Shown piece by piece: positions 12,681-30,477 of a DNA stretch of 30,477 nucleotides. A program made the translations under genes and the position numbers. The notes beneath the pieces were generated by a model that did no database searches, was not told the DNA's origin, and worked only from the letters and a program-made list of their open reading frames with translations. How positions within the stretch are numbered: position 1 is the stretch's first letter; every line of letters starts with the position of its first letter. Origin of the DNA: a virus; IMG/VR virus record IMGVR_UViG_3300028393_000250, positions 1 to 30,477 of that record. The stretch is one strand, 5' to 3'.

Positions 12681-12707
12681 AACTTTCCCAAAGTTAAAGT
12701 CGTAAAT

Positions 12708-13181: not shown

Positions 13182-13187
13182 ATTAAC

Positions 13188-13216
13188 ACTATACAGCACT
13201 TTTTGCTTTTCGGCAA
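13188..13216 (-). promoter_or_regulatory. sigma70-type promoter for the candidate small RNA
   Basis: On the minus strand TTGCCG (13216-13211), a 17-base spacer and TATAGT (13193-13188), matching consensus at 4 of 6 and 5 of 6 positions. It lies between the terminator at 13262-13289 and the hairpin RNA, a place where a new transcript must begin. Confidence 0.55.
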
Positions 13217-13244
13217 TAAGTACTAAAAATATTTTCTCCAACTC

Positions 13245-13262
13245 TAACATCTGTTAATGTTA
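13245..13262. promoter_or_regulatory. inverted repeat, possible operator
   Basis: TAACAT and ATGTTA flank six bases just upstream of the promoter at 13188-13216 and just after the terminator. It could be a repressor site; nothing else supports it. Confidence 0.3.
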
Positions 13263-13289
13263 AAAGAACCCCCCAGTTTCCTAGGGGGT
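13262..13289 (-). terminator. rho-independent terminator after the PD-(D/E)XK-like gene
   Basis: On the minus strand ACCCCCTAG-GAAA-CTGGGGGGT forms a 9-bp stem (one G-T pair) with a GNRA tetraloop, followed by TCTTTTAA. It lies 30 bases past the stop of the gene at 13320-13634. Confidence 0.85.
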
Positions 13290-13319
13290 AAGGGTCCGAG
13301 GACCAAGGAGAAAGCAGCT

Positions 13320-13634
13320 TTATTCTACATGAATAATTTTTACTTCCCAGCGGTTGTTCTTTTTTTGCCATCCGTGGACCTCTATCTTGATGCCTGACTC
13401 TCTCACTATGTCCAGGTTCTCATGCTCTAGGATCTTCTTTAGCCGGTCTGATGTGTGGCCCCAGCTGGTGGTCTGCACGCCGATTACCACCCCCTGGCCC
13501 AGGCACAGGATGTCAATAAAGCCGGCGAAGTCATTCTTGCGCTTGGTAAAGGAGTTGTACCGCTCGACCACCTCGGCATAGAAGCCGTTGTCCCTCATGT
13601 ACTTGAGGCTGCGCTGCGTAGTTGTTACCGCCAT
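13320..13634 (-). CDS. PD-(D/E)XK-like phage nuclease-fold protein with altered active site
   Basis: A 104-aa protein from ATG 13634 (MAVTTTQRSLKYMRD). The pattern VVERYN..(6)..DFAGFIDILCL..GVVIGVQTTS, then an Arg/Lys helix and VHGWQKKNNRWEVK, matches a phage family with a restriction-endonuclease-like fold. Asp41 (in FIDIL) is in place, but the usual Glu-x-Lys is Gln54-Thr-Thr56, as in other members with 'QxT'. Whether it cuts DNA is therefore unclear; a Holliday-junction or restriction-like role is an inference. It is a single-gene unit ending at the strong terminator at 13262-13289 and is divergent from the plus-strand cassette. Confidence 0.75.
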   Translation of the reverse strand: MAVTTTQRSLKYMRDNGFYAEVVERYNSFTKRKNDFAGFIDILCLGQGVVIGVQTTSWGHTSDRLKKILEHENLDIVRESGIKIEVHGWQKKNNRWEVKIIHVE

Positions 13635-13641
13635 AAATATT

Positions 13642-13671
13642 TTTCCAAGGGGTTGCAAGACATGATATACT
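13642..13671 (+). promoter_or_regulatory. extended -10 promoter for the plus-strand cassette
   Basis: TTTCCA (13642-13647), an 18-base spacer and TATACT (13666-13671) preceded by TGA, which makes an extended -10 (TGATATACT). A second overlapping candidate, TTGCAA (13653-13658) and TACAAT (13677-13682), is also 18 bases apart. Either gives a leader of about 30-40 bases to ATG 13719. Confidence 0.6.
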
Positions 13672-13718
13672 ATGGGTACAATGTGTTGCCCCACCACCTA
13701 ATTTTACAGGAGAAACAT

Positions 13719-13910
13719 ATGCGCTGCTTTACGGTTCGCTGGGATAAAAACGCTGAAGAAGCCAAGATTTCTTACGCTGATTGGTTCAAGCCAGAGACAG
13801 ATTCATACACCCAATTGATCATTCTTGATGCATTGAATGACGCAATTACTGAACTTCAAGATCTTTACGAAACCACATATGACACTAGATCAACCAAGGA
13901 AAAAGCATGA
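13719..13910 (+). CDS. small phage protein, first gene of the recombination cassette
   Basis: A 63-aa protein (MRCFTVRWDKNAEEAKISYADW...). ATG 13719 has an excellent Shine-Dalgarno (CAGGAGA). The stop overlaps the next ATG as ATGA. Charged, with a C-terminal helix (LDALNDAITELQDLYE). No function recognised; position suggests an early accessory protein. Confidence 0.7.
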   Translation: MRCFTVRWDKNAEEAKISYADWFKPETDSYTQLIILDALNDAITELQDLYETTYDTRSTKEKA

Positions 13911-14785
13911 TCATCACTAACAAATACAACCTACCGCAGACGTTTGTGAACGTCTTAAAGCGGCCGTCTTACTCAAAGGGAAAGGCCAACATATCGGCCA
14001 CCGAGCTGATCTCCTCTCCCAGGATTGTCCAGCTACGCAAGCTGCACGCTGATCAGATAGAGCAGGATGTTAGCGAGATGGTCTGGTCCATCTTTGGCAC
14101 GGCCATCCACGGCGTGCTAGAACACGGCAAGGATGACCACCACATAGTCGAGGAACGGCTGCACACCAGCGTTGACGGCTGGGCTATTTCCGGCGCTATA
14201 GACCTACAGATCGTTAATGAGGACGGCACTATCACTGTTAATGATTACAAGACTGTAGGCGCATGGTCAGTGATGAACGAGAAGATCGACTGGGAGCTAC
14301 AGCTAAACATCTACGCTTGGCTTGTCCGCAAGGTAAAGAACACCGACGTGACCAAGCTGGAGATCGTAGCCATCATCCGCGATTGGAGCCGCAGGGACGC
14401 CGCAATCAAGGCATCCTACCCTGATGCCCCTGTGAAGGTTATACCCGTCCAATTGTGGCCTTACGAGCGCCAGCAGGAGTTTATCCAGCAGCGCATTGAG
14501 ATCCACTCCAACGCCCTGTTTGACCTTGAGACAGGCGACGAGTTACCCCACTGCACTCCTGATGAGATGTGGGAAAAGCAAACTACCTACGCGGTTAAAA
14601 AGATTGGTGGAGTCAAGGCACGCAATGTCTGTGACACCAATGAGGAAGCTCTAGCCAAGGTGGCGGAGTACGGGAAAGAGTACGAGATAGAAGTGCGGCT
14701 AGGAGAACGGACGCGCTGCGCTAACTTTTGCTCTGTTAGCAAATGGTGCAACCAGTACCAGGATTATTTAACAACTAAGGAGTAA
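13907..14785 (+). CDS. RecB/Cas4-like PD-(D/E)XK exonuclease
   Basis: A 292-aa nuclease. Motifs in order: GTAIH (His68), GAIDL (Asp99), VNDYKTV (Asp113, Lys115), then a QLNIYAW helix typical of the Q-motif. The C-terminus has three cysteines (CANFCSVSKWC). The usual N-terminal cysteine is replaced by serine (ISSPR at about 36-39), so a complete Fe-S quartet is not evident, unlike the nuclease at 6116-6781. Next to the ERF annealase it probably resects DNA ends for single-strand-annealing recombination. GC is somewhat higher than in the small genes that follow. Start shared with the upstream stop (ATGA). Confidence 0.88.
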   Translation: MIITNKYNLPQTFVNVLKRPSYSKGKANISATELISSPRIVQLRKLHADQIEQDVSEMVWSIFGTAIHGVLEHGKDDHHIVEERLHTSVDGWAISGAIDLQIVNEDGTITVNDYKTVGAWSVMNEKIDWELQLNIYAWLVRKVKNTDVTKLEIVAIIRDWSRRDAAIKASYPDAPVKVIPVQLWPYERQQEFIQQRIEIHSNALFDLETGDELPHCTPDEMWEKQTTYAVKKIGGVKARNVCDTNEEALAKVAEYGKEYEIEVRLGERTRCANFCSVSKWCNQYQDYLTTKE

Positions 14786-14787
14786 GC

Positions 14788-15204
14788 ATGAAAGATTGGA
14801 TGAAAAAGAATGGCATTCAAGAAGTTGAAACCAAAACGGAAGGCATTACTGCTGACCACATTTGGTACAACGCAGATATTTTGACCCACAAGATGTCTGG
14901 CTGGTCGTTTGAATTTCAGCGGCTGGTTAAAACAATGGAGGACCGGCACAAAGAGCACCTGAAGATGATTGCTGACTTGCTAGAGGAGCGTAAGCAACTG
15001 ATGGCAAGAGGAACTAAAGAGAAGGAAGCCACTGTAATTTACAACGAGATTCAGGAGGCCATTGGGTTTCTTTCTGATTTGCTCAAAGTAGAAGGTGATC
15101 GATTTCGATTTGAATCTATGGATCCATACACCATGGAAGGTCAAATTGATATTGCCATTGACAAATTGGATCAGCTGTGTGTTCGTTTAGAGGCCAAGGA
15201 GTAA
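14788..15204 (+). CDS. hypothetical helical phage protein
   Basis: A 138-aa, mostly helical, charged protein. Two long amphipathic helices (MEDRHKEHLKMIADLLEERKQL and MEGQIDIAIDKLDQLCVRLEAK) suggest an oligomer or partner-binding protein. It lies between the exonuclease and the ERF gene, with GGAG before ATG. No family recognised. Confidence 0.75.
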   Translation: MKDWMKKNGIQEVETKTEGITADHIWYNADILTHKMSGWSFEFQRLVKTMEDRHKEHLKMIADLLEERKQLMARGTKEKEATVIYNEIQEAIGFLSDLLKVEGDRFRFESMDPYTMEGQIDIAIDKLDQLCVRLEAKE

Positions 15205-15206
15205 TC

Positions 15207-15374
15207 ATGGAAGAGTTATTGCCAGTAGCCATAGTTGGCTGGGTTATAGCGTCATGGCTGACGCACGTTGTTGTTTGTTTGTCGGCTGGCAAATGGGGAT
15301 TCCTCATTGCTGGCGCGATTATTTTCCCAATCGCATGGATTCACGGAACCGGCGTTTGGTTTGGGTTTTTTTAA
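15207..15374 (+). CDS. small membrane protein with two helices
   Basis: A 55-aa protein from ATG 15207 (MEELLPVAIVGWVIASWL). Two hydrophobic segments (AIVGWVIASWLTHVVVCL and WGFLIAGAIIFPIAW) indicate an inner-membrane hairpin. AAGGAG lies just upstream. Function unknown; it interrupts an otherwise soluble recombination cassette. Confidence 0.65.
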   Translation: MEELLPVAIVGWVIASWLTHVVVCLSAGKWGFLIAGAIIFPIAWIHGTGVWFGFF

Positions 15375-15383
15375 AGGAAGAGC

Positions 15384-16091
15384 ATGGTACATAAGAAACT
15401 AATGGATGCGCGGATACGTCTGCAGGGCACAAAGCTGAAGAAGAGTGGGTGGAATGATTTTTCCAAATATCATTACTTTGAACTGGGCGACTTCTTGCCT
15501 GAGATCCAAAACATCTTTCATGACATTGGCTTGTGTGGCGTTGTGTCCTATGACGCAAACTACGCAACCCTATCCATCACCGATACCGATGACGGCACAG
15601 TGATTGTTATTGCAAGCCCTATGGCTGCAGCCCAACTCAAAGGCGCACACCCTATCCAAAACCTAGGCGCAGTGGAGACCTACCAACGCCGCTATCTTTG
15701 GATGACGGCTATGGAGATTGTGGAGCATGATGCTATTGACTCTTCCAAGACAGAGGAGCCAAAGGAGATTCCTAAAGTAGAGCCTAAAGCAATTCCAAAG
15801 GAAGAGCCAAAGGCAGCGCCTAAGAAGTACATCAAAGGCGACAAGCTGCCGCCTGAGTGGGTTGAGCCTAACCCGCCGTGGACTATTGAAATTGACGCCG
15901 AACATCCTGCTCAATGGAACCAGCTTCTGGTTGATGCCACCAAGTTAAACCTAGAGATGGCTAAAACCGAGGACGATGTAAAGGACATGTACAAAGTCAA
16001 TCGCCAGCATTACGACAAAGTTAAAGCAGCGTCACCAGAGGTCCATGCCGAAATCATGGATTTATTTAAAGAAGCGAAAGGAAAATTTTAA
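15384..16091 (+). CDS. ERF family single-strand annealing protein
   Basis: A 235-aa recombinase. GWNDFSKYHYFELGDFLP near residue 22 and GAVETYQRRYLWMTAMEIVEHD near 95-116 are the ERF hallmarks. ERF proteins anneal complementary single strands after exonuclease resection, the phage equivalent of RecT/Red-beta. Between about 122 and 150 there is a Lys-Glu-Pro-rich linker with an imperfect repeat (EEPKEIPKVEPKAIPK), then a small C-terminal domain ending in a basic helix. The gene starts after AAGGAAG and its stop overlaps the next ATG (TAATG). It partners the exonuclease at 13907-14785 and the acidic-tailed protein downstream. Confidence 0.92.
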   Translation: MVHKKLMDARIRLQGTKLKKSGWNDFSKYHYFELGDFLPEIQNIFHDIGLCGVVSYDANYATLSITDTDDGTVIVIASPMAAAQLKGAHPIQNLGAVETYQRRYLWMTAMEIVEHDAIDSSKTEEPKEIPKVEPKAIPKEEPKAAPKKYIKGDKLPPEWVEPNPPWTIEIDAEHPAQWNQLLVDATKLNLEMAKTEDDVKDMYKVNRQHYDKVKAASPEVHAEIMDLFKEAKGKF

Positions 16092-16345
16092 TGGACTACA
16101 CAAATACAGGGGCGTTGTTTACCTCCTTAAACAAGCGAAACGAGAAAGCGCCGGACATGAACGGCAACATGAAGTTTGATAAAGCCTATCTCATGGAGAT
16201 GATTGATAAAGCAGAGGGCGAAGATGCTGTAACGATCAAGCTGGACGGCTGGGTTAAGCGCGACAAGAACAACAACCGTATGGTTTCGTTAAAGGTTAAC
16301 ACCTACGTTAAGCCAACACAAGCAAAGGACCCTTGGGATGACTAA
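16091..16345 (+). CDS. small acidic-tailed protein, candidate SSB-like partner of ERF
   Basis: An 84-aa protein. GALFTSLNKRNEKAPDMNG near the N-terminus, a central TIKLDGWVKRDKNNNRMVSLKV that reads as OB-like beta strands, and an acidic tail DPWDD reminiscent of SSB tails. Homologues with 'GALF.n..K..PD..G' occur beside phage recombinases. A ssDNA-binding function is inferred from fold-like pattern, tail and neighbours only. Translationally coupled to ERF by TAATG. Confidence 0.65.
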   Translation: MDYTNTGALFTSLNKRNEKAPDMNGNMKFDKAYLMEMIDKAEGEDAVTIKLDGWVKRDKNNNRMVSLKVNTYVKPTQAKDPWDD

Positions 16346-16580
16346 GAAAATTAAAAAGCCCACAACTGTTGAAGAGTGGGAGAAGGTTTGCGATAACCTT
16401 AACTCTGCATTAAAGTCCTCTATAAAGATGGAGGAAGAGTTAACTAAAGCATTAGATGCGGAAAAGTATTTTAATAACCAGTTTCAAAAGAGAGTTGATA
16501 AGCTTGAAGACCAGCTTGTTATGTCTCATGGCGTGATCAAATATTTGGAGACAAAACTTGAGCGACGCAATCCAGTTTGA
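16338..16580 (+). CDS. coiled-coil phage protein
   Basis: An 80-aa, highly charged helical protein (KMEEELTKALDAEKYFNNQF...KLEDQLVMSHGVIKYLETKLE). Overlaps the previous stop by eight bases and the next gene by 23. No function recognised. Confidence 0.65.
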   Translation: MTKKIKKPTTVEEWEKVCDNLNSALKSSIKMEEELTKALDAEKYFNNQFQKRVDKLEDQLVMSHGVIKYLETKLERRNPV

Positions 16581-17461: not shown

Positions 17462-17658
17462 TGACTGAGCATGAAGAAAACCTACGCGACTTGGCGGCGA
17501 TGTTTGCCATGACCGGATTGATCATCAGGAACAGGGAGGGAGAACTAATTGTCCCTACCGCCTTTGAGCTTGCCGATTACTTTATGGAATCAAGAAAGCC
17601 TGAAGAAGGTATTGCGGCCATCAAAAAGAGTCGCAAGAAAAATGTACAGGAATCGTAA
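17461..17658 (+). CDS. hypothetical small phage protein
   Basis: A 65-aa soluble protein (MTEHEENLRDLAAMFAMTGLII...). Ends in a basic Lys/Arg-rich tail (KKSRKKNVQES). TAATG coupling upstream. No family recognised. Confidence 0.65.
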   Translation: MTEHEENLRDLAAMFAMTGLIIRNREGELIVPTAFELADYFMESRKPEEGIAAIKKSRKKNVQES

Positions 17659-17929
17659 ATTGTTAGACGCTGCGCGTGAGCTGCCCTGCCAGCACTGTGG
17701 TACGCAAGATGGTACGGTAGTGGCGGCTCACAGCAACCAACTAAGGGACGGCAAAGGGCGCGGCCTTAAAGCACAAGACTATAGGATTGCATCACTCTGT
17801 TACAAGTGCCACGCTGACCTGGACCAGGGAACGCATATGAGCAAGGCCGAAAGAATTGAGATGTTTGAGGAGGCACACCGCAAGACTATCGGCCTTATGT
17901 TTGAGCGTGAGATTATTGGGCTGCTCTAA
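17642..17929 (+). CDS. YbcO-like (DUF1364) HNH-type nuclease
   Basis: A 95-aa protein from ATG 17642. Cys16-x2-Cys19, VVAAHSNQ (His30), GKG, KAQDYRIASLC and Cys53-x2-Cys56-His57 followed by LDQGTH reproduce the DUF1364/YbcO layout: a zinc-bound HNH-like fold of lambdoid prophages. The family is a putative structure-specific nuclease near phage recombination genes, replacing or complementing Holliday-junction resolvases. The last gene of the plus cassette, it overlaps the stop of the convergent giant gene by 17 bases. No clear terminator is visible between them. Confidence 0.85.
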   Translation: MYRNRKLLDAARELPCQHCGTQDGTVVAAHSNQLRDGKGRGLKAQDYRIASLCYKCHADLDQGTHMSKAERIEMFEEAHRKTIGLMFEREIIGLL

Positions 17930-20900
17930 CTTTATCGTTAAAGTCCCTCATGGCCTTTACTCTCATCTCTTCAATGCGCTGAGCATTCTTTTTATCATTT
18001 TTCTCAAGGTAAATTTTCTTTTCCTTGTTGAGCTTAGCGATTCTGTTTTCTACGTTATTGGCCTGTTGCCATAACTTAGATTCAGGATTTGCTTTTTTGT
18101 ACTCCTCAACTGGCTCTCTGTTTTGTATGCGCTTTTTGATTTCATGCTCATACTCCGCCATCTGAGATACGTTGTCGTAAAACTTAGCCGAGATAGCGGC
18201 CGGTGTTTTAGTTTCCCCATACAGCTTTCCAACCACTGGAATCTTGTATGCGGGGACCTCTTCACCTTCAGCTGCGGCCTTTATAGAACCAACGCCCTTA
18301 ATTATTTCTCTACTAAAGCCGCCAAAGTACTGACCAGCCAAGTAATCGATCTCGTCAGCTGTCGGGCTAATTAGTCCTTTGGTATGTTTGGTGCCTACTG
18401 GTGAAGTTATGAAATTCAAGAACTCGGCTATGCCCTGGCTTATGAATGTAGCCGTAGGACGCGAACGCTCATATCCAGGCGTTGGCTGGGTTGACATATC
18501 CTTTTTATAGATTGGCCGACCAAATGCATCTTTGTTAGCTGCGACTGCAAACAACGGATCGAACGCAGTAGGGGCAAGCATCTGAGTAAAGCTTCCGGCA
18601 CCAAGCGGATTGAACGCATCAAGTATTAGTGACCCAATGCTTAACGCTTTATCACCAAGACCTTGGTTGCTTTTGAGTAATCCGCCTTTGATTAACACTG
18701 CTTCAGTAATGATGCGGCCAATTCCTGGGAACACATTAAGTCCAGGCGGCATTGGCAAGATGATGTAGTTGTTTCCTGCAAATGGAATAGGGATGATGAA
18801 GTTTTTATCTTTCAAAAACTCTGGAGGATCCCCATCATCGTATCCATTTAGCGCCAGTGCTATTGCCTGAATAACACCCAGGGTAATGCCACCAGCAATA
18901 ATTTTCTTGCCCATAGGACCGTTTAAGGTCTTTGCTAAGCGCGCAGTTCCTTGAACAGATGCATTTACAAAAGCATACAAAGCCTGGAAGGTTGGGGAGG
19001 CCGCGCCCTTGCGGTTAAAGTTAACGGTCAACTCTTTAGCAATAGAGGCTGCTTTTTGCTCGCTTAATCCTTGATCTAATGCCACCTTAAAAGAAGAGAG
19101 ACGCACGGCGTTTTCCATTGCATCGTTGTAGTCTGAGAGCCAATCAAAAAGCTTTTGAGCAGCTTTTTTAACATTGCCTCTGTCAAGGCGTTTCATCTCT
19201 TGCTCAACAATGTTTACTTTTTCTTTTGGCGCACCCGTTCTCATACGTTCAACAAACTTGCCAAAGGACTCACCTTGCCCGCTGAACTGCTGTGCAAACC
19301 CAGTGGTGCCACCCGCCAGCCGCATCTGGTCAAACAAATCCATATAGGCTTGCTCTTTTGGAGATGAAGCTGGCTTATCCCTTAAGCTTTTCCAGATAGC
19401 AAATATTGCGGGCCAGGTGCCTGCTAAAACTGTTTTTTCTTTACCGGCAATTTCTGTTGATGAAAGATTAAAGGCAGCACTTTGTACGTCACGCGCCATG
19501 TTCCATGCGCCAAACACTGGGTTGTATTGCGTATTGATAGATGCAATCCAGCGAGTAACCGCTCCAATATTCCCAAGCACAAAACCAAGCTGGTCCGCGT
19601 CCAGGTTCTTTAAAGACATAGCCATGCGCATGGCGCGCTCATCTTTGGGGTTAAAGATGATGAATCTATCTTCGCCATTGATACGAACAGGAAATACGTT
19701 TTTGCTGTTGTATTGAGCTGGGTTAACGTCATAGCGCACAAGCCCAGTAGTCTTATCAATAGACGGGGTTTGCAGTGGGCGAATAAGGTTTTCAGCGTCC
19801 TGAATAGTCAAGCCAAGGCTAACCATTTCTTGTATAAGCTTGGGTCTATTTTTAACGGCATTAGGGTTAACTGGTAACCAGAATTTTGGATTTGGGCTAG
19901 TGATGGCTAGGGCATACAACGCACGGCCAACCTTGGCTTGTTCAGCCCTGCGAATTGCCTTCTCTCTTTGCATTGCAATGTTTAACAGAATATCCTTAAC
20001 CGGCTTAACAGAGCCCACCGCACGCTTAGATGCCCCGCCTTTTGTGCCTACTCCGCCAACATATCCAGAGCCGGTATGAACAAAGTCCAGATCATCACGC
20101 TGTAGTGGGACGTAATGCTTGTAAGTTTTATTCCATTGGTCAATAGTGTCCTGAGTCTCAAGACCGCCATCAACCAACATCTCTTGAGTCCCCTCAATGA
20201 TGTCATCAATTTTTGATGCAAAGCGCTCTAGCTTGGCCTTCTCTGCTGCTGGTAAGTTAGCCAAATAATCTTGAGCGTCAGTTGTTTTAATTCCTGAGCC
20301 AACATCCTGAACGTCTGGAGATAAATTAATTTTGTTAATCTGTTCGTTACGTTCTTCTGCATGGCGATTGTGAAGATACTTTTCAAGCTCATCTACAGTT
20401 ATTCCCTGCTCCTTCATTTGCTCAAGCAGTGGCCGGAAATCTTCTTCTAGGAAATTCTTAATGCGCTCAGCGGAGCGCCCATGATAAAGAGTCTCTTTTG
20501 TGTAGGCGTCCAGGCGCTCATCAATCTGGCCAACTTTTTCGTTAATTCTTTCAATTACCCGTTTGGTGTCTACTTGTTTATCTGCAACTTGATAGATAAG
20601 ACCATCAGTAAATGATGGCTCAACTGTATCCCAAAGAGCTGTTGGAGCTGCATTGCCTTGATAGTTTTGGATGGACAGGTAATCACCTTCACCCAGCATC
20701 TCTCTCGTAACAAACTTGCCATCAGACTTTGCAAGGCTATCTAATGCACGAATGATTGAGGCGTCAGACTTCAATCCAAACAATGACTTGATCTTCTGGC
20801 CCAGCTCTTTGAGCCAGTTCTTTAGCCTTGCGAGTACCCCGCCTCTTACGGCATCAAAGCGAGACTTAACAATGTCGGAGCCATTTACGGCCCAGAACTC

Positions 20901-23900
20901 AGATGGGTTGAAGTACTCATAAAGCTCGCGTGGCACATCGCCAAGCTTAAGCATTTCACTTGCAAAGGCGTCGCTGTTGGCGCTATTCAAATTCTCCAAC
21001 GTAACTTTAATCCGCTCATAAATTTTTTCCGCACCCTTTGGTACATCTATATTATTTATGCGGTTGTCACCATAGTGAGATTCCATGAGGGCTGCAAAGT
21101 ACAGCTTCTCTGCAGGAGTCTTGGCTTTCTTGGCGGCTTTTGCAAGCTGAGATGACCAAGCCTTGCGGATAGCCTGCTGAACCTTGGTTGGCATCATGCG
21201 CTCAAGATGATGCAAAATCTCATGTACTGTTGTTAAATCAGAACTGCCATTTTTAATAACCGTCATGATGCGCTTATAAGCGTTATATTGACCACCTTGC
21301 CCTGGCTTGCCTTTGCCAATAATAGATACGCCCAGGTCGCTGACAAGGTCTTCGTTGTTCACCATAAACCAAGTGGCTAAGTCACGAGCTTCGCGTGAAA
21401 TTTCTTTGGCATCGACAGCTTGATTCAATCTTGTTTGGATGTGCAGGAACCCACGCTTGCGCTCATTTGGCTCTTCCGCAAGACGTTGCTCTTCATCAGC
21501 AGCAATTGCGGCATCAGCCCGCTCAACAAACTGTTCGTCGGTTATGCGGCCATCTTTACGCATCCGATTGAGAGTCTTAATGGTGCGCTTCAGGGAGTCT
21601 GAGCGTTTCTTTTGCTCACCTTCTGCGTAGCCTTCAATGCTGTAGTAAGTCGGCTCATTCGGCTCTTTAGGCTCCTTGCCTGGGGCCTCCTCTTCGGTTT
21701 TAACCTCAAGCTTATTTGCCTCTGTTTCACGGCCAGTTTGCTTGCGCTCAATCCCAGGCTTAGGAGCTGGAACTTGCTTCTCTGTTACGGTTGTCTTGGT
21801 AACGGGCTCAATCTTCTGGCGGATGATGTCATCACTGTACATAGCTTTACCATTGATAAAGTCCATGACGTTTGCGCCGTTCTCGGGAACGATAAATATC
21901 TTGGCACCATCCATTTGGTTAAGGTGGTTGGTGATTAAGTACTTGAAGGTTTCTTTGTTGACGTTAATACAGCCAAAGGAATAGCGGGAGTCCTCTGCTC
22001 CAGGCTTGTCTAGCGCAGCGAGGCGTTGTTTGGCGTCAGTCTCATTCGTCCATACAGAGTGCATGATTGTGTTTGAGTACGGGCCGTTCTTCCCCATGTG
22101 GGATTTGTCCAGCACAAACACTTTGCCAAAGTCATAGTCACCAGCGGTATACGCCTCACCAGCGCTACGCTTGGCATCACGCAGGCCGAGATCAAACACG
22201 CCGGCCGGAGTAATCCTGTTGGCTACGATCTCATTGTCACCATGCATGTAGTCGCCGATGGCCTTGCCAAACAAAGTCTTGCTTTGGAGCAATAGAGATC
22301 CATCGGGATTGAATAGGTAAGTGTTACCGCTTCGCTTGTCCGCAACAATGAACAGCTTGTCATTAGCCTTGAGCTGGGCCTCCAGGGCTGGGTAGATGAC
22401 GCCATACGCACGCTTAGCGGCATCAGACATCGACTGCGCTTCTTTTGGTAGGTCCTTGATAACCTCACTGGTCTTGATGTCGTACTGAGGCACTGCAATC
22501 GTGTACGGCTTGCTGACAAACTGAGGGTTAAAGACAATCGCCACAGACAGGACGCCGTTGGCAATCTGCTTGATGATCGCCCGGATCTTGCCGTTAACAG
22601 CCTTTGCGCCTTGGGTGATGAAAGCAATGACATCCTTGCGCAGGCTGTCCAAGAACTCAGTAGAGTTATGCTTGGCACCATACTGAGACTCTAGGCTCTT
22701 TGTCTGGTCTTCATTAAGGCTGGAGACTTGGTTGGCTAACAACGCGTGCTGCTTCTCTTCGCCTATTTCTGTGAACTCACCCTCAATCGTGTACGGCTCA
22801 TTAGTAAGCCGAGGGGCGGCAGGCTTCTCTGCTGGGCCCAGCACTTCTACTTCTGGCTCACGAACCATAACTTTGTTAGAGTCTTCCGCAAAGTCAAAGC
22901 CAAACTTTTTATAGAGATCCTCAAGCTGCTGGCGGTCTAGGCCAAAGTTCTTTTCCTTGATGTTGACAATCGGGACCGGCTCAATGTAGAGAGTAACTCC
23001 ATACTGATCAGCGGCCTTGGTCAAGCTATCCAAAGCTTTACTGGCGGCTCCTTTGCCTCGCATATTTGGATCAACCAATAATGCATTTACAGTTAGATCA
23101 CTGGATTCTCCGCGAGCTGTAATAACAGAATTTCGATTTTGAAATAAAACTAGCTGCGGCGTAAACGAAATACGAACACCATCTTTTTCAAAGGTGCGAT
23201 GAGATTCGCCGCCTTTGTCAACGTATGAGCGAGGATCATCCAGCGCCAATACTTTATAGCCGTCATTAAATAGAACAGAGGCCATAGGATAACGTAAAGC
23301 GCCGCCCTCTGGCGTTTCTACTGGCTCAGGTTTAGTTGGCTCTTGTTCTGCTGCATAAGCCTCATCAAACTTTTTCATAGCGGCATCGTAAACCTTGCGG
23401 CCCGCTAAGAATTCATCATCACCAATCTCTTGAGCGCGATAAGCTTCTTGTATTTTATTGAAAGCTTTAATCGCTTTGTTTGACTCATCCATTGCCTTTT
23501 GGTAATCTTCTGATGGAGGCTCTTCTTGTATTTCCTGTTTCCCATTGATGATGTATCTTGCAATGGTTGTGGCCTCGTCTAGATTGCCGTCATAGTAGAA
23601 GTCTTGAAACTCGGAGCCGTCAATTGCCTTTTCATCGGCCTCTGTAGCGCCTTCAAAAGCCTTGGTGTCTACACCATAGTAAGTGCGAGTAAGGCGTTCA
23701 GCCGGAGTCATGCTTTCGGCGTTGTTAGCAATGAAAAATGCGTAGGCAAACCCTTCAGGCGTAAGCGAGCGGGCGTATTTATCCTTGCCGCTTAACTTAA
23801 GTATCTTTGACCCTTCAGTTGGCTCAACAGGAGCCATAGGTAATTCGTTCTCAAAGTTACCCCATAGCAGGGTTTTCTTTGTGTACGGATCTCCATAGAG

Positions 23901-26900
23901 GTTAGGGTCAAACGTCAGATGCGCTGGCGGCAGGTTATTTAACTTGGCAATGCGACCAACAGGATTCTCCAATGCCCAAATTTTTGGCTGTAGAAAATTA
24001 ACTGTACGGATCACTTGCATTACCAGCTCATTGCTGATCTCTGTCTGGCCTTTAGCGTCTTTTTTGGCCCAGAACTGAGCGCCAGAAGAGGCAAAGTCTG
24101 TGCAAGGAGGGGCAGCAAGAATGCCCCATACATCTAAATCGCCATACCCATTTTCAAGTAAGTACTCTGCACTAAAGTCGTTAATGTCTTCGCCCGTTTG
24201 TAGGTCAAAGGTATGGACGTCGTAGCCAGCCTCTTGCCAAGGTTTAGCCCACTCACCAGAGGCATCAAACAAACTAAGAATGGTCTTGTTGTAATTTTTA
24301 TTAGCCTTGCCCTGGCGTGCCGCCTCCGCCTTCCACTCATCTATTTGGGCCTTGGCTTCCTCAGGCGTTAACATTTCAGTTGGCTTTGGCTTAGCTGGTT
24401 TTTCCGTTGAGTGCATTAATGCATTACGGCGAATATCAGAAGGCTCTTCCTCTTCCCGTGTTTCGCTTAAAAGCTTTCCAACAGTTTCGGAATCTGCCTC
24501 AAACGGTACAACCTTAACGCCGTCTTCATTTACCAGCGCTTCTTCGTTCTTTTCCTCTTGGGCAAAGATATCCTTTTGGCCCTGTGCAACTGCAATATCA
24601 GCAGCGCGGTTGCTGCCTGTTAAAGTAAATTCACCAACTTCACGGTCAGCTTTAGCCCTATCCTCAGCCTCTTTATCAGCCTTGGCTTTGGCGGCTTCTT
24701 TTTCCTCTTGCTCAATGCGATACTTTTCTTTAGCTCTTAATCCTTTTGGGGTTGGTTTAGTAAGCGCTTCTCCTTCATCTGGTTCAGTAGATGGAATCTC
24801 GCTTTCGGGCTCAACGCTGCGAGCATTGATTTCACCCTCTCTTTGTTCGTCTGCTGCTTCTTGAAGTTCAAGGTTCTGCTCCTCAATAGTTAGGTAGTCA
24901 TTAATTAATTTTTCAGCCTCTTCAACAGATCCAAAGATTTGCTCAATCTCTACTTGAGAGCTGTAGGGAATGTAGTTCTGCCCACGCACCTGATCTTTGA
25001 TGTACTCTTCCGCTTCTTGGCCGTCAAAGCCAGGGACGTTAGAGCGCATTTGGAACGGTAGGAACTCATCCAAATCGCCGTCTGAAACCATGTCAGCAAT
25101 TGACTTGCCGCTGGATCCTTTTTTGGCTTGAAGTTTCTTTTGGTATATCTGAGGGCTCTTGCCAAACAGTTCAGCTATATCACTAGAGCCAAGCTTCCCA
25201 GTTAGAGAGGTCCATAGGCTTAGTCCAGGCTTGCCTTTGATCTTGCTAACAGCCTTCTCACCCTCTGTAACCCTTTGCTCCGCCTCAGTAACTTCCTGGG
25301 GCCGTGGAACAGCTTTACGGATTACTTGCTGAGCGTTATTGGCAGAAGTGTTTGCGCGCTTGATAGCGGCATTAAACTTGTTTTGATCAGCATTATTGAA
25401 TTCTTGTTGCAGGGCATAGTGACCAGCCAAAAGATTCGATCTATCAGCAATTAAAACGTTGTATTGATTTTTTAATTTACCGGCCTCTGAATCTAATTTT
25501 ATTTTTGGATCTGTAACTTCATAACCAAGATTATTAACTGCCGATACAACACTTCCAAGTGTTTTTTCTATATTATCAAAAGCAGACTTTGCTTCAGGTG
25601 ATGCCGTCTTCTGAAATGTGTCGTAATAATCTTGCTCTGTTGTTAATTTTTTAGCAGGTGTTGCGGGTGTTTTTTTGCCAATAACAATGTACTCTGGTCC
25701 ATTGGTAGTGTTAAACGTAATACCATCGTGACCAGCTTCACGCGCCGCATTGACCAAATCTGCCATAGTATCAGACCGGGTAAGACCCAACTTAGCTTTG
25801 GCATCAACCCATGTTGGAGCTTGTAATAAGTTATCAAACGCATGAACTTTTTCTGATACCACGCCATTTGGACCAGCATACATTTCAGCTACCTTGCGGT
25901 CTGGCGACATGAATTGTGCACCACCAACAGTGGGGCGTTGTTCTTGTCCCTGTGGAACTCCACGGTACAGTGTTATAGGGGCTGCGGGCGCTTGTTTGCG
26001 CTTTTCAATTTCAGCTTTAACAAGGTTATGCTCAGAATCACGCAACTTAATGTTGTTTACTTCAGTCTCAAGTTGCTCATCAGTCATTGCTGCAACTTGA
26101 TTAGGAGTTAGTGCTTTCTGTTCTATAGGGGCTGTGGGCGCTTGTTGTTCTTGCGCTTGCGTGATTGGCGCAATATTTTCCCGCAATGCTTTAATGGTTC
26201 CAACAGGGTCAATTCTTAACCCTGCATTAATTCCCATTATTGCGCTGGTTCCTAGCCTTATGCCAATTTCAGATTGAGCAAATCGTTCAGGCGTCATCCT
26301 TCCCCTTTTGGCGTTTTCCTCCAAAGCCTCTAATTCAAAATCAGCATCTTCAAAAGAAAGTGGTTTTATGCCATCGTAATAAGGGTTTTGTAACAGGCTA
26401 TATCTAAAGTCTGGTGGCACTTTAAATTCTGCGGGCGCTTGTTGTTTTTGCGCTTCTGCTTGCTTGGCTTTAGGGGTTTCAATGCCACTTAAGGCTCCTT
26501 CAATAGAGAGAGGGGTTGGGGTGGTTGGAGTTGGTTCCTCCATTTGCTTGCGAACAAACGGCCCAGCCTCAGCAACTGTTGGCTGAATCTCGGTGGGCTT
26601 AGGAGCTTCAACATTAACAGGTGGTAATGTTGTGGCAGGAGGTTGTCCTAGCGCCTCACGCAGCATTGCCTCTGTATCCATAGACTCAGAGGGAGCAGCG
26701 GTTAGTTTTTCTGGAGATATGGCTACAGGCGAAATAGGGGGTGCAAGCGGAGTGCTTTCGGTAGGAGCTTGGATGCCTGGGCGAGCTGTAGGGGGAGTAA
26801 CTTCTAGGCCAGGGATATTAGCCCTGACATTTGTACCTTTTTCCATGCCGGAATTTGGCATCAAAGACTGACGAACCAATTGATCCAATGCAGTCTGATT

Positions 26901-28268
26901 TACAGTAGCGCCTTTTGCGCCCTCTTCTAGCGCCTGTGCAAGGATATCGGCACGAGTTTGTTCGCCAGTCCTGGCTCCATGAACCCTTGCTCCAGTAGTT
27001 ACGCCTCCTCCAATAACTCCACCAAGCATACCTGCTGCAGCATTATTTAAAATATCTTTAATGTTTTCTTCTGTAAAAAATTCATCTTTTTCTTTTTCTC
27101 GAACTTGACCGGCTATTTGAACACCTTGCTGCGCTCCCTCTTGTAAAGCTTCCTCAAGCGATCCTTTGGGGATTTCTTTAAGCCCCTCTTTAAACGCCTT
27201 CTTTTTAGTTTCTCCAATAACTACCTCTTTAACGCCACGCTTAGCCAATGTTGCAATTGGGCCAAGGGCGGTATCTAATGCGCCATTAATAATGCCAACA
27301 GCTAATGTTGTATCTCCAGTTTTCTTTATATAGTCTGTAATTGCATCTATTTTTTGATTATCTGGAAGGTCTTTAATTTTTTCTTGAATAAATTGCAAGC
27401 GGTCGCCAAGAGCCTGGGCAGCACCCATTGGCGCGCTAACCGCAAAAAGACCAGCAGGACCAGTAGCAGCTCCAGCCAATATTAATGGCGCCATTTGAAC
27501 GGGTAAATTTCCTGCGTTATAAGCAAGCCAATTGGTAAAATCTTTGACGTTCTCAATATCCGTCATGTTGGCCGTGCGGCCGGTATACTTAACTGCATCT
27601 TTTTGGTATTGATCCAATGTATTGATAGAGGCAGCAACAAAATCTTTACGGCGTCCAATTTCACCTATTGTTCGCTCGCGAATTTTTTCTCGCATTGCAG
27701 GGTCAGCGCCAAAATATGCACGAGCTTGCGAGGTAGAGATATCCAAGCCGCGCAATTGATCAGGGCTAGTGATTTCACCAGTCTCAATCTTGTCAAAAAG
27801 ATCAAGCCTTTTCTGAACAGTTCCAAGTGCACCAACATCTTTAAGTACGCTAGTTTGTTCCCACATCGATGGCAACGCAATTGTTGCAGCGCTGACTGCA
27901 CCTTTAACAAACTCTTCCATTGGGCGAGCTTCTGAAGGCGGGCGGGGCTCTTTAGGAGGTTGAGCTATTGTTGGTTCAGTGCTGGGAGCACCAATAGCGC
28001 TCATTACCTGCTCTTCAGGAGATAGTGTGAGCTCAGCCGGAGGTTTTGCTGGTGTCTTTAGTAGGCTTCTTATGCCTGCGCTTGATGGGGTGGCCGCAGC
28101 ATAAGCCTGCTCTTGAGGAGACAGGGCTGGATTACCGGCAAAGTCAGGCACCTTCGGAGTAGGAGCTGGCGGCTGCTTCTCGAGGTAGCCTAGGATCTTA
28201 GCTTTAGCCTCAGCGGGATCTTCAGTGGTAATGTCGTACTGCTGACCCTTGTACTCATAAATAGGCAT
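17913..28268 (-). CDS. giant polyvalent virion-type protein (ART, C5-MTase, GNAT, YkuD, zincin, LPD38)
   Basis: 3451 aa in one uninterrupted frame. Regions in order: YEYKGQQYDITTEDP N-terminus; hydrophobic Ala/Gly segment about 240-285; Pro/Gln-rich linkers about 450-760; ADP-ribosyltransferase-like fold about 765-870 (YRG at 768-770, AGHDGITF); helical region about 1010-1125; C5 DNA-methyltransferase-like domain about 1320-1500 (LSLFDASG, APPCTDF with Cys1389, ALENPVG); GNAT about 1655-1800 (RGKG at 1737-1740); YkuD L,D-transpeptidase about 1960-2150 (TPAGVF, MHSVW, SFGCIN with Cys2100); zincin (HEILH, His2349, Glu2350, His2353); LPD38-like C-terminus from about 2900 with a hydrophobic segment near 3120. 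This is the 'polyvalent protein' style, thought to be packaged and injected with the DNA. Start: ATG with TTAAGG seven bases upstream; it lies eight bases after the 553-aa gene. Confidence 0.9.
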   Translation of the reverse strand: MPIYEYKGQQYDITTEDPAEAKAKILGYLEKQPPAPTPKVPDFAGNPALSPQEQAYAAATPSSAGIRSLLKTPAKPPAELTLSPEEQVMSAIGAPSTEPTIAQPPKEPRPPSEARPMEEFVKGAVSAATIALPSMWEQTSVLKDVGALGTVQKRLDLFDKIETGEITSPDQLRGLDISTSQARAYFGADPAMREKIRERTIGEIGRRKDFVAASINTLDQYQKDAVKYTGRTANMTDIENVKDFTNWLAYNAGNLPVQMAPLILAGAATGPAGLFAVSAPMGAAQALGDRLQFIQEKIKDLPDNQKIDAITDYIKKTGDTTLAVGIINGALDTALGPIATLAKRGVKEVVIGETKKKAFKEGLKEIPKGSLEEALQEGAQQGVQIAGQVREKEKDEFFTEENIKDILNNAAAGMLGGVIGGGVTTGARVHGARTGEQTRADILAQALEEGAKGATVNQTALDQLVRQSLMPNSGMEKGTNVRANIPGLEVTPPTARPGIQAPTESTPLAPPISPVAISPEKLTAAPSESMDTEAMLREALGQPPATTLPPVNVEAPKPTEIQPTVAEAGPFVRKQMEEPTPTTPTPLSIEGALSGIETPKAKQAEAQKQQAPAEFKVPPDFRYSLLQNPYYDGIKPLSFEDADFELEALEENAKRGRMTPERFAQSEIGIRLGTSAIMGINAGLRIDPVGTIKALRENIAPITQAQEQQAPTAPIEQKALTPNQVAAMTDEQLETEVNNIKLRDSEHNLVKAEIEKRKQAPAAPITLYRGVPQGQEQRPTVGGAQFMSPDRKVAEMYAGPNGVVSEKVHAFDNLLQAPTWVDAKAKLGLTRSDTMADLVNAAREAGHDGITFNTTNGPEYIVIGKKTPATPAKKLTTEQDYYDTFQKTASPEAKSAFDNIEKTLGSVVSAVNNLGYEVTDPKIKLDSEAGKLKNQYNVLIADRSNLLAGHYALQQEFNNADQNKFNAAIKRANTSANNAQQVIRKAVPRPQEVTEAEQRVTEGEKAVSKIKGKPGLSLWTSLTGKLGSSDIAELFGKSPQIYQKKLQAKKGSSGKSIADMVSDGDLDEFLPFQMRSNVPGFDGQEAEEYIKDQVRGQNYIPYSSQVEIEQIFGSVEEAEKLINDYLTIEEQNLELQEAADEQREGEINARSVEPESEIPSTEPDEGEALTKPTPKGLRAKEKYRIEQEEKEAAKAKADKEAEDRAKADREVGEFTLTGSNRAADIAVAQGQKDIFAQEEKNEEALVNEDGVKVVPFEADSETVGKLLSETREEEEPSDIRRNALMHSTEKPAKPKPTEMLTPEEAKAQIDEWKAEAARQGKANKNYNKTILSLFDASGEWAKPWQEAGYDVHTFDLQTGEDINDFSAEYLLENGYGDLDVWGILAAPPCTDFASSGAQFWAKKDAKGQTEISNELVMQVIRTVNFLQPKIWALENPVGRIAKLNNLPPAHLTFDPNLYGDPYTKKTLLWGNFENELPMAPVEPTEGSKILKLSGKDKYARSLTPEGFAYAFFIANNAESMTPAERLTRTYYGVDTKAFEGATEADEKAIDGSEFQDFYYDGNLDEATTIARYIINGKQEIQEEPPSEDYQKAMDESNKAIKAFNKIQEAYRAQEIGDDEFLAGRKVYDAAMKKFDEAYAAEQEPTKPEPVETPEGGALRYPMASVLFNDGYKVLALDDPRSYVDKGGESHRTFEKDGVRISFTPQLVLFQNRNSVITARGESSDLTVNALLVDPNMRGKGAASKALDSLTKAADQYGVTLYIEPVPIVNIKEKNFGLDRQQLEDLYKKFGFDFAEDSNKVMVREPEVEVLGPAEKPAAPRLTNEPYTIEGEFTEIGEEKQHALLANQVSSLNEDQTKSLESQYGAKHNSTEFLDSLRKDVIAFITQGAKAVNGKIRAIIKQIANGVLSVAIVFNPQFVSKPYTIAVPQYDIKTSEVIKDLPKEAQSMSDAAKRAYGVIYPALEAQLKANDKLFIVADKRSGNTYLFNPDGSLLLQSKTLFGKAIGDYMHGDNEIVANRITPAGVFDLGLRDAKRSAGEAYTAGDYDFGKVFVLDKSHMGKNGPYSNTIMHSVWTNETDAKQRLAALDKPGAEDSRYSFGCINVNKETFKYLITNHLNQMDGAKIFIVPENGANVMDFINGKAMYSDDIIRQKIEPVTKTTVTEKQVPAPKPGIERKQTGRETEANKLEVKTEEEAPGKEPKEPNEPTYYSIEGYAEGEQKKRSDSLKRTIKTLNRMRKDGRITDEQFVERADAAIAADEEQRLAEEPNERKRGFLHIQTRLNQAVDAKEISREARDLATWFMVNNEDLVSDLGVSIIGKGKPGQGGQYNAYKRIMTVIKNGSSDLTTVHEILHHLERMMPTKVQQAIRKAWSSQLAKAAKKAKTPAEKLYFAALMESHYGDNRINNIDVPKGAEKIYERIKVTLENLNSANSDAFASEMLKLGDVPRELYEYFNPSEFWAVNGSDIVKSRFDAVRGGVLARLKNWLKELGQKIKSLFGLKSDASIIRALDSLAKSDGKFVTREMLGEGDYLSIQNYQGNAAPTALWDTVEPSFTDGLIYQVADKQVDTKRVIERINEKVGQIDERLDAYTKETLYHGRSAERIKNFLEEDFRPLLEQMKEQGITVDELEKYLHNRHAEERNEQINKINLSPDVQDVGSGIKTTDAQDYLANLPAAEKAKLERFASKIDDIIEGTQEMLVDGGLETQDTIDQWNKTYKHYVPLQRDDLDFVHTGSGYVGGVGTKGGASKRAVGSVKPVKDILLNIAMQREKAIRRAEQAKVGRALYALAITSPNPKFWLPVNPNAVKNRPKLIQEMVSLGLTIQDAENLIRPLQTPSIDKTTGLVRYDVNPAQYNSKNVFPVRINGEDRFIIFNPKDERAMRMAMSLKNLDADQLGFVLGNIGAVTRWIASINTQYNPVFGAWNMARDVQSAAFNLSSTEIAGKEKTVLAGTWPAIFAIWKSLRDKPASSPKEQAYMDLFDQMRLAGGTTGFAQQFSGQGESFGKFVERMRTGAPKEKVNIVEQEMKRLDRGNVKKAAQKLFDWLSDYNDAMENAVRLSSFKVALDQGLSEQKAASIAKELTVNFNRKGAASPTFQALYAFVNASVQGTARLAKTLNGPMGKKIIAGGITLGVIQAIALALNGYDDGDPPEFLKDKNFIIPIPFAGNNYIILPMPPGLNVFPGIGRIITEAVLIKGGLLKSNQGLGDKALSIGSLILDAFNPLGAGSFTQMLAPTAFDPLFAVAANKDAFGRPIYKKDMSTQPTPGYERSRPTATFISQGIAEFLNFITSPVGTKHTKGLISPTADEIDYLAGQYFGGFSREIIKGVGSIKAAAEGEEVPAYKIPVVGKLYGETKTPAAISAKFYDNVSQMAEYEHEIKKRIQNREPVEEYKKANPESKLWQQANNVENRIAKLNKEKKIYLEKNDKKNAQRIEEMRVKAMRDFNDKVRAAQ
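25981..26450. repeat. repeated Gln-Ala-Pro linker units inside the giant gene
   Basis: A GCGGGCGCTTGTT-type block recurs at 25984-25996, 26134-26146 (one base different) and 26431-26443. On the coding strand these encode QAPAAP, QQAPTAP and QQAPAEF, the flexible joints between modules. They may promote module shuffling by recombination. Confidence 0.6.
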
Positions 28269-28276
28269 GACAAGCC

Positions 28277-29938
28277 TTAATCAAGTTTAATTACTTTTGG
28301 CGCTGGGGAGGGGGAGCCGTATCCGAACATGGCCTTGGTCCTATCTATGAATCCAGGCGCCTCAACCGGCTTAGGCTGAAAAGATTCATACAGAGGGAAA
28401 TCAGACTTATCGGGCGGAGGAAGTTTAGCCCTTTTATAGGCATCTTCACGAGCTTTATCTCTAATGGCCCTGTAATATTTTCCAATTGGAGCATCCAATT
28501 CTTCAGGCTGAAGCAAAGAAATTCTTTTGTTGGCTTCTGAAAAATCAGTGTTTGGCTTAGCTAAATTTGCCTCAACTGATCTTATTGCTTTTTGGTCAGC
28601 GGTGGGTCTTGACTCTATAAGAGCGTCTAACCTTTCTCTATCAAGCGCTAGCTGTGAATTTTTTATGGCTTTTTGCACTTCTAATTTTTGAAGCTCAATA
28701 GATGCTTGAGTAGCGTGATTGGCAATCAACTCTTGTAAAGTAAGAGCCGCGTTTGTTTCAAGTTTCTTGTAATGATCAAGAGTGCCTTTTGTTTGAGTCT
28801 CTGTATTAGCCAAAGTAACAGCCTTCTCAGAAGCCCCAACTTGAAGAGTTTGACGTCTTGCAATTGTTTCTGCAAGCTGTTTTTTGTATGTAGTGGCAGC
28901 AGATATGTCATTATCAACTATTGCTTTTGCATAAGCTTGACGTAGCGTTTCAATGTCAGCATTTAGTTTTCCAACTTCAATAGATTGCTGACGCTCAAGA
29001 GCCTGCTGTGCCTGTTGTCGTTTAATGTCTTCAGCGGTGTAGTTGCTATAAGACTTACCAAACCCAGCAAATGCTGCACCGATACCTTTTTGTCCACGAG
29101 TAGCTTCACCAGCCGCAATTAGGGCATCACCGAGCGCGCCAAAATTTAAACGCTTTTGGTTATCTTGGAATTGGGCTTTGTTTGCTTCATTTTGCGCCAT
29201 CAGTTTTTCAGATAATTTTGCAAGCTCAGCACCTGGAATTGTGTTTACCAATGTAGCTAATTCTGGGTGCTTATCTAATACTTCTTGACGAATAATATCT
29301 GGATTTGTAGGTAGAGGTTCATCACTCTCACCCCTAATAGCCTTGGCTATAGCAGCAGTTGCGGGCGCTATTAAAGACTGAAGACCGGCCGGCTGGATTG
29401 CAGACGCAGGAGGTCCTTGGCTTTGATCGGCTGCAGCCATGCCAGCACGAGCTTCAGCTTCTCCAGCAGTATCATCATCTGGAACAAGTTCTCCGCCAGG
29501 ACCGCGAACAAGCTCACCTTCAGCAAAAGCAACAATCCCACCAGGAGCATAGTGGAACATATCATCGCGTACAGGTAGGCCAGCTACTCCGCCAGCAGCC
29601 ATACCAGGGGGCATTCCTTGAGGGGCTGGAGGCATCTCCTGTGGGGCGCCTTGAGGCATTCCTTGAGGCGCACCTTGAGCGGCTGGTAATTGAGCAATGC
29701 CTTGTGGAGCAGCTTGCGGTGCGCCTTGAGGCATACCTCGACCACCTACCTCAGACTCTAGCTTTTCTTTAACAGATTGCGTTGGCGGCTCTGTTTTACG
29801 CTGCTCTGATGTTTTGCGGCGGTTAAGTTCACCAAGAGCCATGTAAGGAGGAACCTCTGGATTCTGTCCATTTGCATAGGACATGACCACTTGAGTAGGG
29901 AGATCCTTAAGATGCTCTTGAATTTGTATAAGATTCAT
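28277..29938 (-). CDS. PQG-repeat internal virion-type protein
   Basis: A 553-aa protein. The N-terminus (LPTQVVMSYANGQNPEVPPYMALGELNRRK) is shared by internal virion proteins of many aquatic podovirus-like phages. Residues about 68-120 are a low-complexity Met-Pro-Gln-Gly/Ala repeat, followed by FHYAPGGIVAFAEG and then an acidic Ala-rich stretch. Residues about 210-470 form long coiled coil (QAQQALERQQSIEVGKLNADIETLRQ). It lies directly before the giant gene, with AAAAGG before ATG. A structural or ejection role is inferred from these features and from its neighbour; I cannot name the protein. Confidence 0.78.
   Translation of the reverse strand: MNLIQIQEHLKDLPTQVVMSYANGQNPEVPPYMALGELNRRKTSEQRKTEPPTQSVKEKLESEVGGRGMPQGAPQAAPQGIAQLPAAQGAPQGMPQGAPQEMPPAPQGMPPGMAAGGVAGLPVRDDMFHYAPGGIVAFAEGELVRGPGGELVPDDDTAGEAEARAGMAAADQSQGPPASAIQPAGLQSLIAPATAAIAKAIRGESDEPLPTNPDIIRQEVLDKHPELATLVNTIPGAELAKLSEKLMAQNEANKAQFQDNQKRLNFGALGDALIAAGEATRGQKGIGAAFAGFGKSYSNYTAEDIKRQQAQQALERQQSIEVGKLNADIETLRQAYAKAIVDNDISAATTYKKQLAETIARRQTLQVGASEKAVTLANTETQTKGTLDHYKKLETNAALTLQELIANHATQASIELQKLEVQKAIKNSQLALDRERLDALIESRPTADQKAIRSVEANLAKPNTDFSEANKRISLLQPEELDAPIGKYYRAIRDKAREDAYKRAKLPPPDKSDFPLYESFQPKPVEAPGFIDRTKAMFGYGSPSPAPKVIKLD
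29581..29740 (-). repeat. Met-Pro-Gln-Gly-rich coding repeat
   Basis: Imperfect tandem units of GGAATGCCTCAAGGCGC type encode GMPQGAPQ/AAPQG/APQGMPQ. The units are short (12-24 bases) and vary mostly at third bases. The product is a flexible Pro/Gln/Gly segment. Confidence 0.7.
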
Positions 29939-29950: not shown

Positions 29951-30477
29951 TTACGGTCCTATGTCAAGCCCAAGCGTCTTTAATAAATCGCCAACATTTT
30001 TATAACCAAGCGCTTCTGCAACTTTAGTTCCGCCACCTAGAGTAGATAGCAAGTTACCAATGTCGCTCATTTGTGCCGGCGTATTTGATACCGCAGATGT
30101 TGGCAATCCTGTGATCACGTCTCGCTGGAACTGAAGCTGCTGGTAAGGGAACTGACGTTGTTTCTCAAACTCAGCCAGATCAGCCGCAGTACCTTCTGCT
30201 TCAATGTTGCGTTGTGTAGTGCCGGCTTCTAATTGAGCTTTAAGGTTGGCAAGGTCAGTTGTATTTTGCGTAACGCCAATATTGCTTTGTGCCTGTGCAG
30301 CAGCAAGTGCTGCTTTTTGCGCATCTATTCCATAGTTAGCGCCAAACTGTTTAGATTTTTCGGCTTCTTGTTCGGCAGATAAACCGTATTGAGCCCGGTT
30401 TTGTGCAGCAGTCATACCCTGGTTAGCAGCAAATTGTCTAGACTTTTCATTAGCTTCTTCAGCAGATAAACCGTATT
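29951..30477 (-). CDS. repeat-rich virion-type protein, 5' end outside window
   Basis: Reading stays open from the right edge, so the visible ATG at 30415 is probably internal. At least two copies of a 29-residue unit (YGLSAE..EKS.QF.AN.G.TAAQ) lie at the N-terminal side, then a helical QKAALAAAQAQSNIG stretch, and a C-terminal part with FEKQRQFPYQQLQFQRD and LLSTLGGGTKVAEALGYKNVG. The ending is typical of internal or connector-associated proteins coded beside large ejection proteins, but this is weak. Transcribed with the two genes downstream. Confidence 0.7.
   Translation of the reverse strand, partial: YGLSAEEANEKSRQFAANQGMTAAQNRAQYGLSAEQEAEKSKQFGANYGIDAQKAALAAAQAQSNIGVTQNTTDLANLKAQLEAGTTQRNIEAEGTAADLAEFEKQRQFPYQQLQFQRDVITGLPTSAVSNTPAQMSDIGNLLSTLGGGTKVAEALGYKNVGDLLKTLGLDIGP
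30375..30477. repeat. 87-base tandem repeat at the window edge
   Basis: A 16-base identical block at 30375-30390 and 30462-30477 lies 87 bases (29 codons) apart, within a longer imperfect repeat. More copies may continue beyond the edge. Confidence 0.75.

Follow-up and report, generated by a model that had tools for sequence, protein, structure and literature searches.

The window analysed here is the complete IMG/VR virus-class record IMGVR_UViG_3300028393_000250 (30,477 bases), one metagenomic contig of about 30 kb that is probably a fragment and was studied as sequence only. It encodes, on its minus strand, a protein of 3451 amino acids (aa) that is a member of the known polyvalent-protein kind, with several unrelated enzymatic domains and an LPD38 domain in one chain. 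An earlier inspection of the letters (the original prediction) had recognized it as such; the coordinates and length given there were correct, although the minus strand was not mentioned, and each of the motifs lies in the translation at the residue where it had been placed: LYRG at 767, GHDGITF at 846, PPCTDF at 1387 (Cys1389), ENPVG at 1434, RGKGAA at 1737, SFGCIN at 2097 (Cys2100) and HEILH at 2349. What it missed is the slot-and-cassette structure, that is, a constant C-terminal chassis plus five slots at which enzyme cassettes have been exchanged, acquired or lost, as well as a clamp-like motif and the replacement of the DarB-type dyad that relatives have. The gene and its parts, from the N-terminus to the C-terminus, are the following:

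17913..28268, minus strand: polyvalent protein gene, 3451 aa (stop codon 17913-17915, coding 28268-17916)
26469..28268, minus strand: N-terminal region, residues 1-600, of which 1-57 are conserved in close relatives and the rest is mosaic
26172..26426, minus strand: helical cassette, residues ~615-699, also in L008 (~69% identity), flanked by QQAPA linker repeats
25653..25985, minus strand: ADP-ribosyltransferase (ART) domain, residues ~762-872, with invariant R769, Y797 and E859
24624..25637, minus strand: conserved domain, residues 878-1215, common to L027, L036, L037, L042, L035, L017, L015 and part of L002
24564..24629, minus strand: linker motif FTLTGSNRAADIAVAQGQKDIF, residues 1214-1235, ending in a beta-clamp-like Q-x-D-I-F
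23634..24308, minus strand: C5 cytosine-methyltransferase (C5-MTase)-like cassette, residues ~1321-1545, with PPC Cys1389 and ENP 1434
22848..23306, minus strand: GNAT acetyltransferase-like cassette, residues ~1655-1807
21717..22751, minus strand: YkuD L,D-transpeptidase-like module, residues 1840-2184, with His2070 and Cys2100
20829..21617, minus strand: putative zincin metallopeptidase, residues 2218-2480, with HEILH 2349-2353 and Glu2457; predicted fold not confirmed
17916..20831, minus strand: constant C-terminal chassis, residues 2480-3451, common to all relatives
18231..18827, minus strand: LPD38 domain, residues 3148-3346 (E=1e-32)

The chassis was found in 35 IMG/VR loci, in frames mostly of 2000 to >4200 residues, and about 40 relatives were compared in all. 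All relatives share residues 2480-3451, with a mean column identity of 55% in 17 loci, whereas the N-terminal two thirds of the window protein bear the discrete enzyme cassettes. The LPD38-like C-terminus of the original prediction is now a certain assignment (1e-32). Comparison with the closest relatives at the DNA level revealed five slots, all of them in frame. L036, L037 and L042 have an extension at slot A, near residue 557. The ART of the window protein sits in slot B (614-878), where L027/L036, L037 and L042 have three other sequences between the same flanking peptides. The methyltransferase occupies slot C (1240-1640), where L036 and L029 have little or nothing, and the GNAT cassette occupies slot D (1645-1807), whose content is different in L042 and L039. 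Slot E (2208-2212), closed in the window protein, contains an insert in L037, L042, L039, L029 and L003. For all of these except L037, the records list a canonical ART-PolyVal domain, the placement of which in slot E is by coordinates. At the DNA level, the linker at 600-614 repeats at 700-714, and this recurring stretch offers a route for cassette exchange. The domain at 878-1215 had no Pfam or significant PHROG match.

Many other members of the family have a DarB-type dyad of adenine methylase and SNF2 helicase in its stead, and in no member examined did this dyad occur together with the C5 cassette. We rejected the notion that the window protein itself is DarB-like, since the adenine-methylase NPPF and SNF2 helicase motifs are absent. 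A universal N-terminal packaging tag was also dropped, because N-termini differ between subgroups. In L013 (ORF 6674-12649), FDP[VE]AYLRSV occurs three times in the first 60 residues of the N-terminus. The order ART, C5-MTase, GNAT, YkuD, zincin and LPD38 was not found in any other record examined, which agrees with the earlier suggestion that this exact domain set may be undescribed. Like the window protein, the polyvalent proteins of Iyer et al. 2017 (PMC5512222) are, in the main text of that survey, giant phage proteins that combine disparate enzymes with LPD and zincin-like modules and are predicted to be injected early; that text makes no mention of YkuD or a transpeptidase and describes methylases of the adenine type, whereas the window protein has YkuD and C5-MTase-like modules. 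It is the comparison made here that reveals the layout of slots and cassettes on a fixed C-terminal chassis.

The ART assignment draws on relatives as well as on the window. The window sequence itself gave no Pfam profile match and missed the curated cut-off of PF18760, and a single-sequence search for relatives returned a junction fragment only. Two invented variant rows, used purely as a net to widen the search, brought in a real relative (L074); all later work used real sequences only. A search with two real ART sequences reached nine loci, every one in a giant open frame, and PF18760 (ART-PolyVal) was matched by seven of the nine alignment members (best 3.2e-5). The AlphaFold model obtained from the relatives' alignment reached a predicted local distance difference test (pLDDT) score of 81, and about 90 over the core; its leading matches in Foldseek and VIA were ARTs, namely MbcT, AcrIF11, the diphtheria toxin catalytic domain, PARPs and, in the pre-ejectosome structure of cyanophage A4 (9k3a), residues 1420-1593 of one chain. 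Many ART-PolyVal proteins in the viral library matched as well. The fold scores are modest, with a Foldseek E of only 3e-3 against the PDB and a VIA Z of at most 7.6, a range that according to the tool's own warning can reflect a common arrangement. The assignment as an ART rests on the agreement of family, fold and R-Y-E residues together. Relative to PF18760 the cassette is best called a divergent sister group, and the earlier ART claim holds by way of the relatives, with the window sequence itself below detection. AcrIF11 and MbcT (PDB 6kyf, 6fkg) share the fold of the cassette at a sequence identity of 11-17%.

The same divergent subfamily occurs across otherwise unlike giant phage proteins (L074-L083, with the ART at ~3001-3330 of each locus), and PF18760 picks up most of these members weakly. 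The subfamily was not previously known to us; what commends it is an invariant active site together with a confident fold that is common to the anti-CRISPR AcrIF11. The cassette is missing even in the nearest relatives of the window protein, a scan of genome contigs for the ART found nothing, and neither residues 1-1309 nor the ART alone found anything in named phages by tblastn.

The remaining cassettes differ in how directly the window sequence identifies them. The C5-methylase is recognized in the window segment by PF00145 (2e-6, 27.9 bits against a cut-off of 22) and by phrog_757, a phage methyltransferase family (2.7e-39). Motifs I, IV (PPC), VI (ENx) and VIII are present, PPC and ENP are conserved in an alignment with phage Dcm-like proteins, and the cassette aligns with small standalone phage proteins such as Bas01_0030. 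No canonical target-recognition domain was found between motifs VIII and IX, where some 30 residues lie, as in the aligned standalone proteins; we use the name 'C5-MTase-like' because there is no space for such a domain. A 5145-aa protein of Pseudomonas phage 8P, annotated as structural (L044:11842-27279), shares with the window the C5-MTase cassette only (54% identity) and has no C-terminal core; the cassette therefore moves between unrelated giant proteins. The GNAT cassette passes one Pfam cut-off in the window (PF00583, 21.6 bits against 20.7), and the orthologue in L003 scores higher (PF13508, 6e-6). For YkuD, the window sequence itself had no Pfam match, and the support comes from the aligned segment of the L004 orthologue, 47% identical to that of the window, which matches PF03734 (6.6e-8, 33.7 bits against a cut-off of 23.4), and from the catalytic His2070 and the Cys2100 of SFGCIN (an S-x-G-C motif), both invariant among the aligned relatives. 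The HExxH at 2349-2353 and the distal Glu2457 in NPSEFWA are invariant in 20 sequences. An HExxH followed by a distal Glu is the gluzincin pattern, and residues 2218-2480 are a probable zincin on this ground. Sequence searches of the PDB with the ART, zincin, YkuD and core returned nothing useful. The segment searches on which the original prediction had staked itself thus yielded matches for ART, YkuD and C5-MTase, those for YkuD and ART through relatives, and its C5-methylase and GNAT claims were borne out in the window itself.

The genomic setting bears on how the protein is used. Two minus-strand genes lie upstream:

28277..29938, minus strand: 553-aa gene in the position of a virion-associated neighbour (JC1 gp68, BcepMigl gp17), no family match
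29951..30415, minus strand: next upstream open reading frame, 154 aa as listed; the gene in the same place in relative G018 has 295 aa

The giant gene is the last of the late operon in JC1, BcepMigl and the Stx phage P27, and in JC1 and BcepMigl it stands at the end of the structural operon, adjoining virion proteins. A few genes separate it from a head-and-packaging structural protein (phrog_3287, 4e-61) in the relative G018, which is 63.7 kb long. The core of JC1 gp69 is 26% identical to that of the window (E=2e-55), and JC1 gp69 was detected by mass spectrometry in CsCl-purified virions with 51 unique peptides (PMC9144972). P1 DarB, too, is located in the virion head (PMC9024508), and the N4 virion RNA polymerase is an ejected protein of ~3,500 residues with a beads-on-a-string organization (PMC12633501). 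Because JC1 gp69 is virion-associated, the gene holds a late or structural position, and N4 provides a case of beads-on-a-string ejection, we strongly infer that the window protein, too, is packaged and ejected into the host.

Named phages with the same core comprise Stx-converting podophages, Bcep22-like phages, many Vibrio phages and Methanosarcina virus MetMV. The MetMV protein (L045:5563-14571, 3002 aa) has a core 39% identical to that of the window, closer than those of Stx or Burkholderia phages; the host assignment is archaeal, and either a cross-domain transfer or a wrong host label is possible. A giant LPD38 gene with the core also stands at the end of a same-strand gene run on the Endozoicomonas gorgoniicola plasmid NZ_CP103299.1 (L048), which may be a phage-plasmid or prophage.

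Among these relatives, JC1 gp69 and the other Bcep22-like DarB-like proteins resemble the window protein in the core (about 26%) and in operon position, with virion association in JC1; they differ in their cargo, and the window protein does not have the NPPF and SNF2 motifs. The LPD5 or hypothetical giant proteins of Stx-converting podophages (phrog_616) and of Vibrio phages likewise have a related core (27-28% identical) at the end of the late region, but the Stx phage P27 protein shares none of the ART, MTase, GNAT and YkuD cassettes by sequence. The virion RNA polymerase of Schitoviridae (N4) is comparable as a loosely linked chain of ~3,500 residues, ejected in N4 along with two more ejection proteins (PMC12633501); it differs in its RNA polymerase domain, which was not found in the window, and homology has not been established.

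We put a probability of roughly 0.7 on the reading that the window protein is expressed late, packaged in the virion and ejected with the phage DNA, carrying its swapped enzyme cassettes along. The chassis would provide packaging and ejection, and the loosely linked domains would be threaded out of the virion. As the protein crosses the periplasm, YkuD may act on peptidoglycan or on the cross-links in it. In the cytoplasm, the ART and GNAT cassettes could modify host proteins, possibly defence or transcription factors, and the C5-MTase-like cassette could protect or mark the incoming DNA in place of the DarB-type adenine-methylase/helicase of sister phages. The zincin might cut the chain into pieces. 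Taken together, such steps would have one protein target the envelope, proteins and DNA at once, as the original prediction had proposed. Some points weigh against this account. The core is only 26-39% identical to those of named phages. The AlphaFold model of the zincin is poor (pLDDT 57) and its fold matches amount to helical-bundle noise with no zincin among them, so that the earlier zincin claim is supported by the invariant HExxH...E pattern and stays at probable. Finally, the assembly could be chimeric at the linker repeats. Several independent contigs swap in frame at the same slots, which makes a chimera less likely, though one may still lie at the ART slot, a feature of this record alone.

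Two alternatives to packaging and ejection of an active toolkit were weighed. It is improbable, in our judgement, that the cassettes are mostly ancestral remnants or structural filler, retained for bulk or folding rather than for catalysis, in what is an internal core or ejection-conduit protein. Such a view would accommodate an ART below Pfam detection, GNAT and YkuD modules that score weakly in the window itself, and a methyltransferase in which the ~30 residues that separate motif VIII from the last motif hold no canonical target-recognition domain. However, the catalytic residues are invariant (R/Y/E of the ART, His/Cys of YkuD, PPC and ENP of the MTase, and HExxH...E), and the cassettes are gained and lost as entire units. 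That the protein acts only late inside the producing cell, uninjected, as an assembly or lysis-timing factor is more improbable still: its place at the end of the late operon, with lysis genes downstream in several named relatives, would suit such a role, but the homologous JC1 gp69 is among the strongest virion proteins by peptide count, and a cargo of ART, GNAT and MTase suits early host modification, as is argued for polyvalent proteins in PMC5512222.

The window protein is thus probably a delivered toolkit, the tools of which are swapped between phages. The idea that polyvalent proteins are delivered becomes directly testable, with the chassis as what should suffice for packaging and the slots as cargo sites, and sister phages that differ in one cassette are natural experiments on the benefit of each enzyme.

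The linker motif at residues 1214-1235 follows the pattern FxLTGS[DN]R[PA]AD...Qx[DS][LIM][FL] and recurs in unrelated giant phage proteins. A DNA pattern scan over all IMG/VR contigs, which covered the LTGS[DN]R[PA]AD part only, found 19 non-redundant frames, nearly all giant. In 17 of these 19, Q-x-x-[LIMV]-[FLIV] follows within the next 21 residues; among windows from other parts of these proteins, 3% have it. For the strict form, Q-x-[DS]-[LIM]-F, the corresponding figures are eight of the 19 and 0.14%. Four frames lack the intervening AAARG stretch and retain the Q-motif. Synonymous codons vary at every conserved position, with Ser written both as AGY and as TCN, and selection is therefore on the peptide and not on the DNA. 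A role of the motif as a DNA-level recombination patch was rejected for the same free variation. The published beta-clamp motif is Q-L-x-L-F (PMC4549789). QKDIF, at residue 1231 in the window, fits it at Q1, hydrophobic position 4 and F5, and has Lys rather than Leu at position 2; across 26 instances, Q, L/I/M and F/L dominate their positions.

These patterns lead us to put forward, tentatively and at less than even odds, that the linker motif serves to dock these proteins on the sliding clamp of the host or of the phage, with TLTGSNRAADIAVAQGQKDIF as the candidate DnaN-binding peptide. Injected polyvalent proteins would in this way be loaded onto replicating DNA, and cargo such as the methylase and the acetyltransferase would reach the phage genome as it enters or is newly copied, or else the host replisome would be blocked. 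The main rival, which we regard as rather doubtful, takes the motif as a packaging tag or as a processing signal, for instance a site cut by the zincin or by a host protease; it has in its favour that the motif lies at a cassette boundary and that L015 and L035 have two copies of it, which flank the GNAT cassette. Yet L002, L015, L017 and L035 have the motif without an HExxH...PSE(F/Y)WA zincin, and the Qx[DS][LIM][FL] end, which matches the clamp consensus (PMC4549789), is retained where the preceding linker is deleted. If the clamp-like motif is a true DnaN binder, it would be a common intracellular address for this class of injected proteins. Among core-family members, those with the DarB-type dyad were not found to have the motif. 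A related peptide ending in QADLL is present in an LPD38 protein on an Endozoicomonas plasmid.

Beyond the giant gene, window positions 2862-16580 encode a phage DNA polymerase, a helicase, an Erf-like annealing protein and an exonuclease, and the direction of the main genes switches near 13 kb. An HNH endonuclease gene on the plus strand (17549-17929) is convergent with the giant gene, and the two share 17 bases at the 3′ end of the latter.

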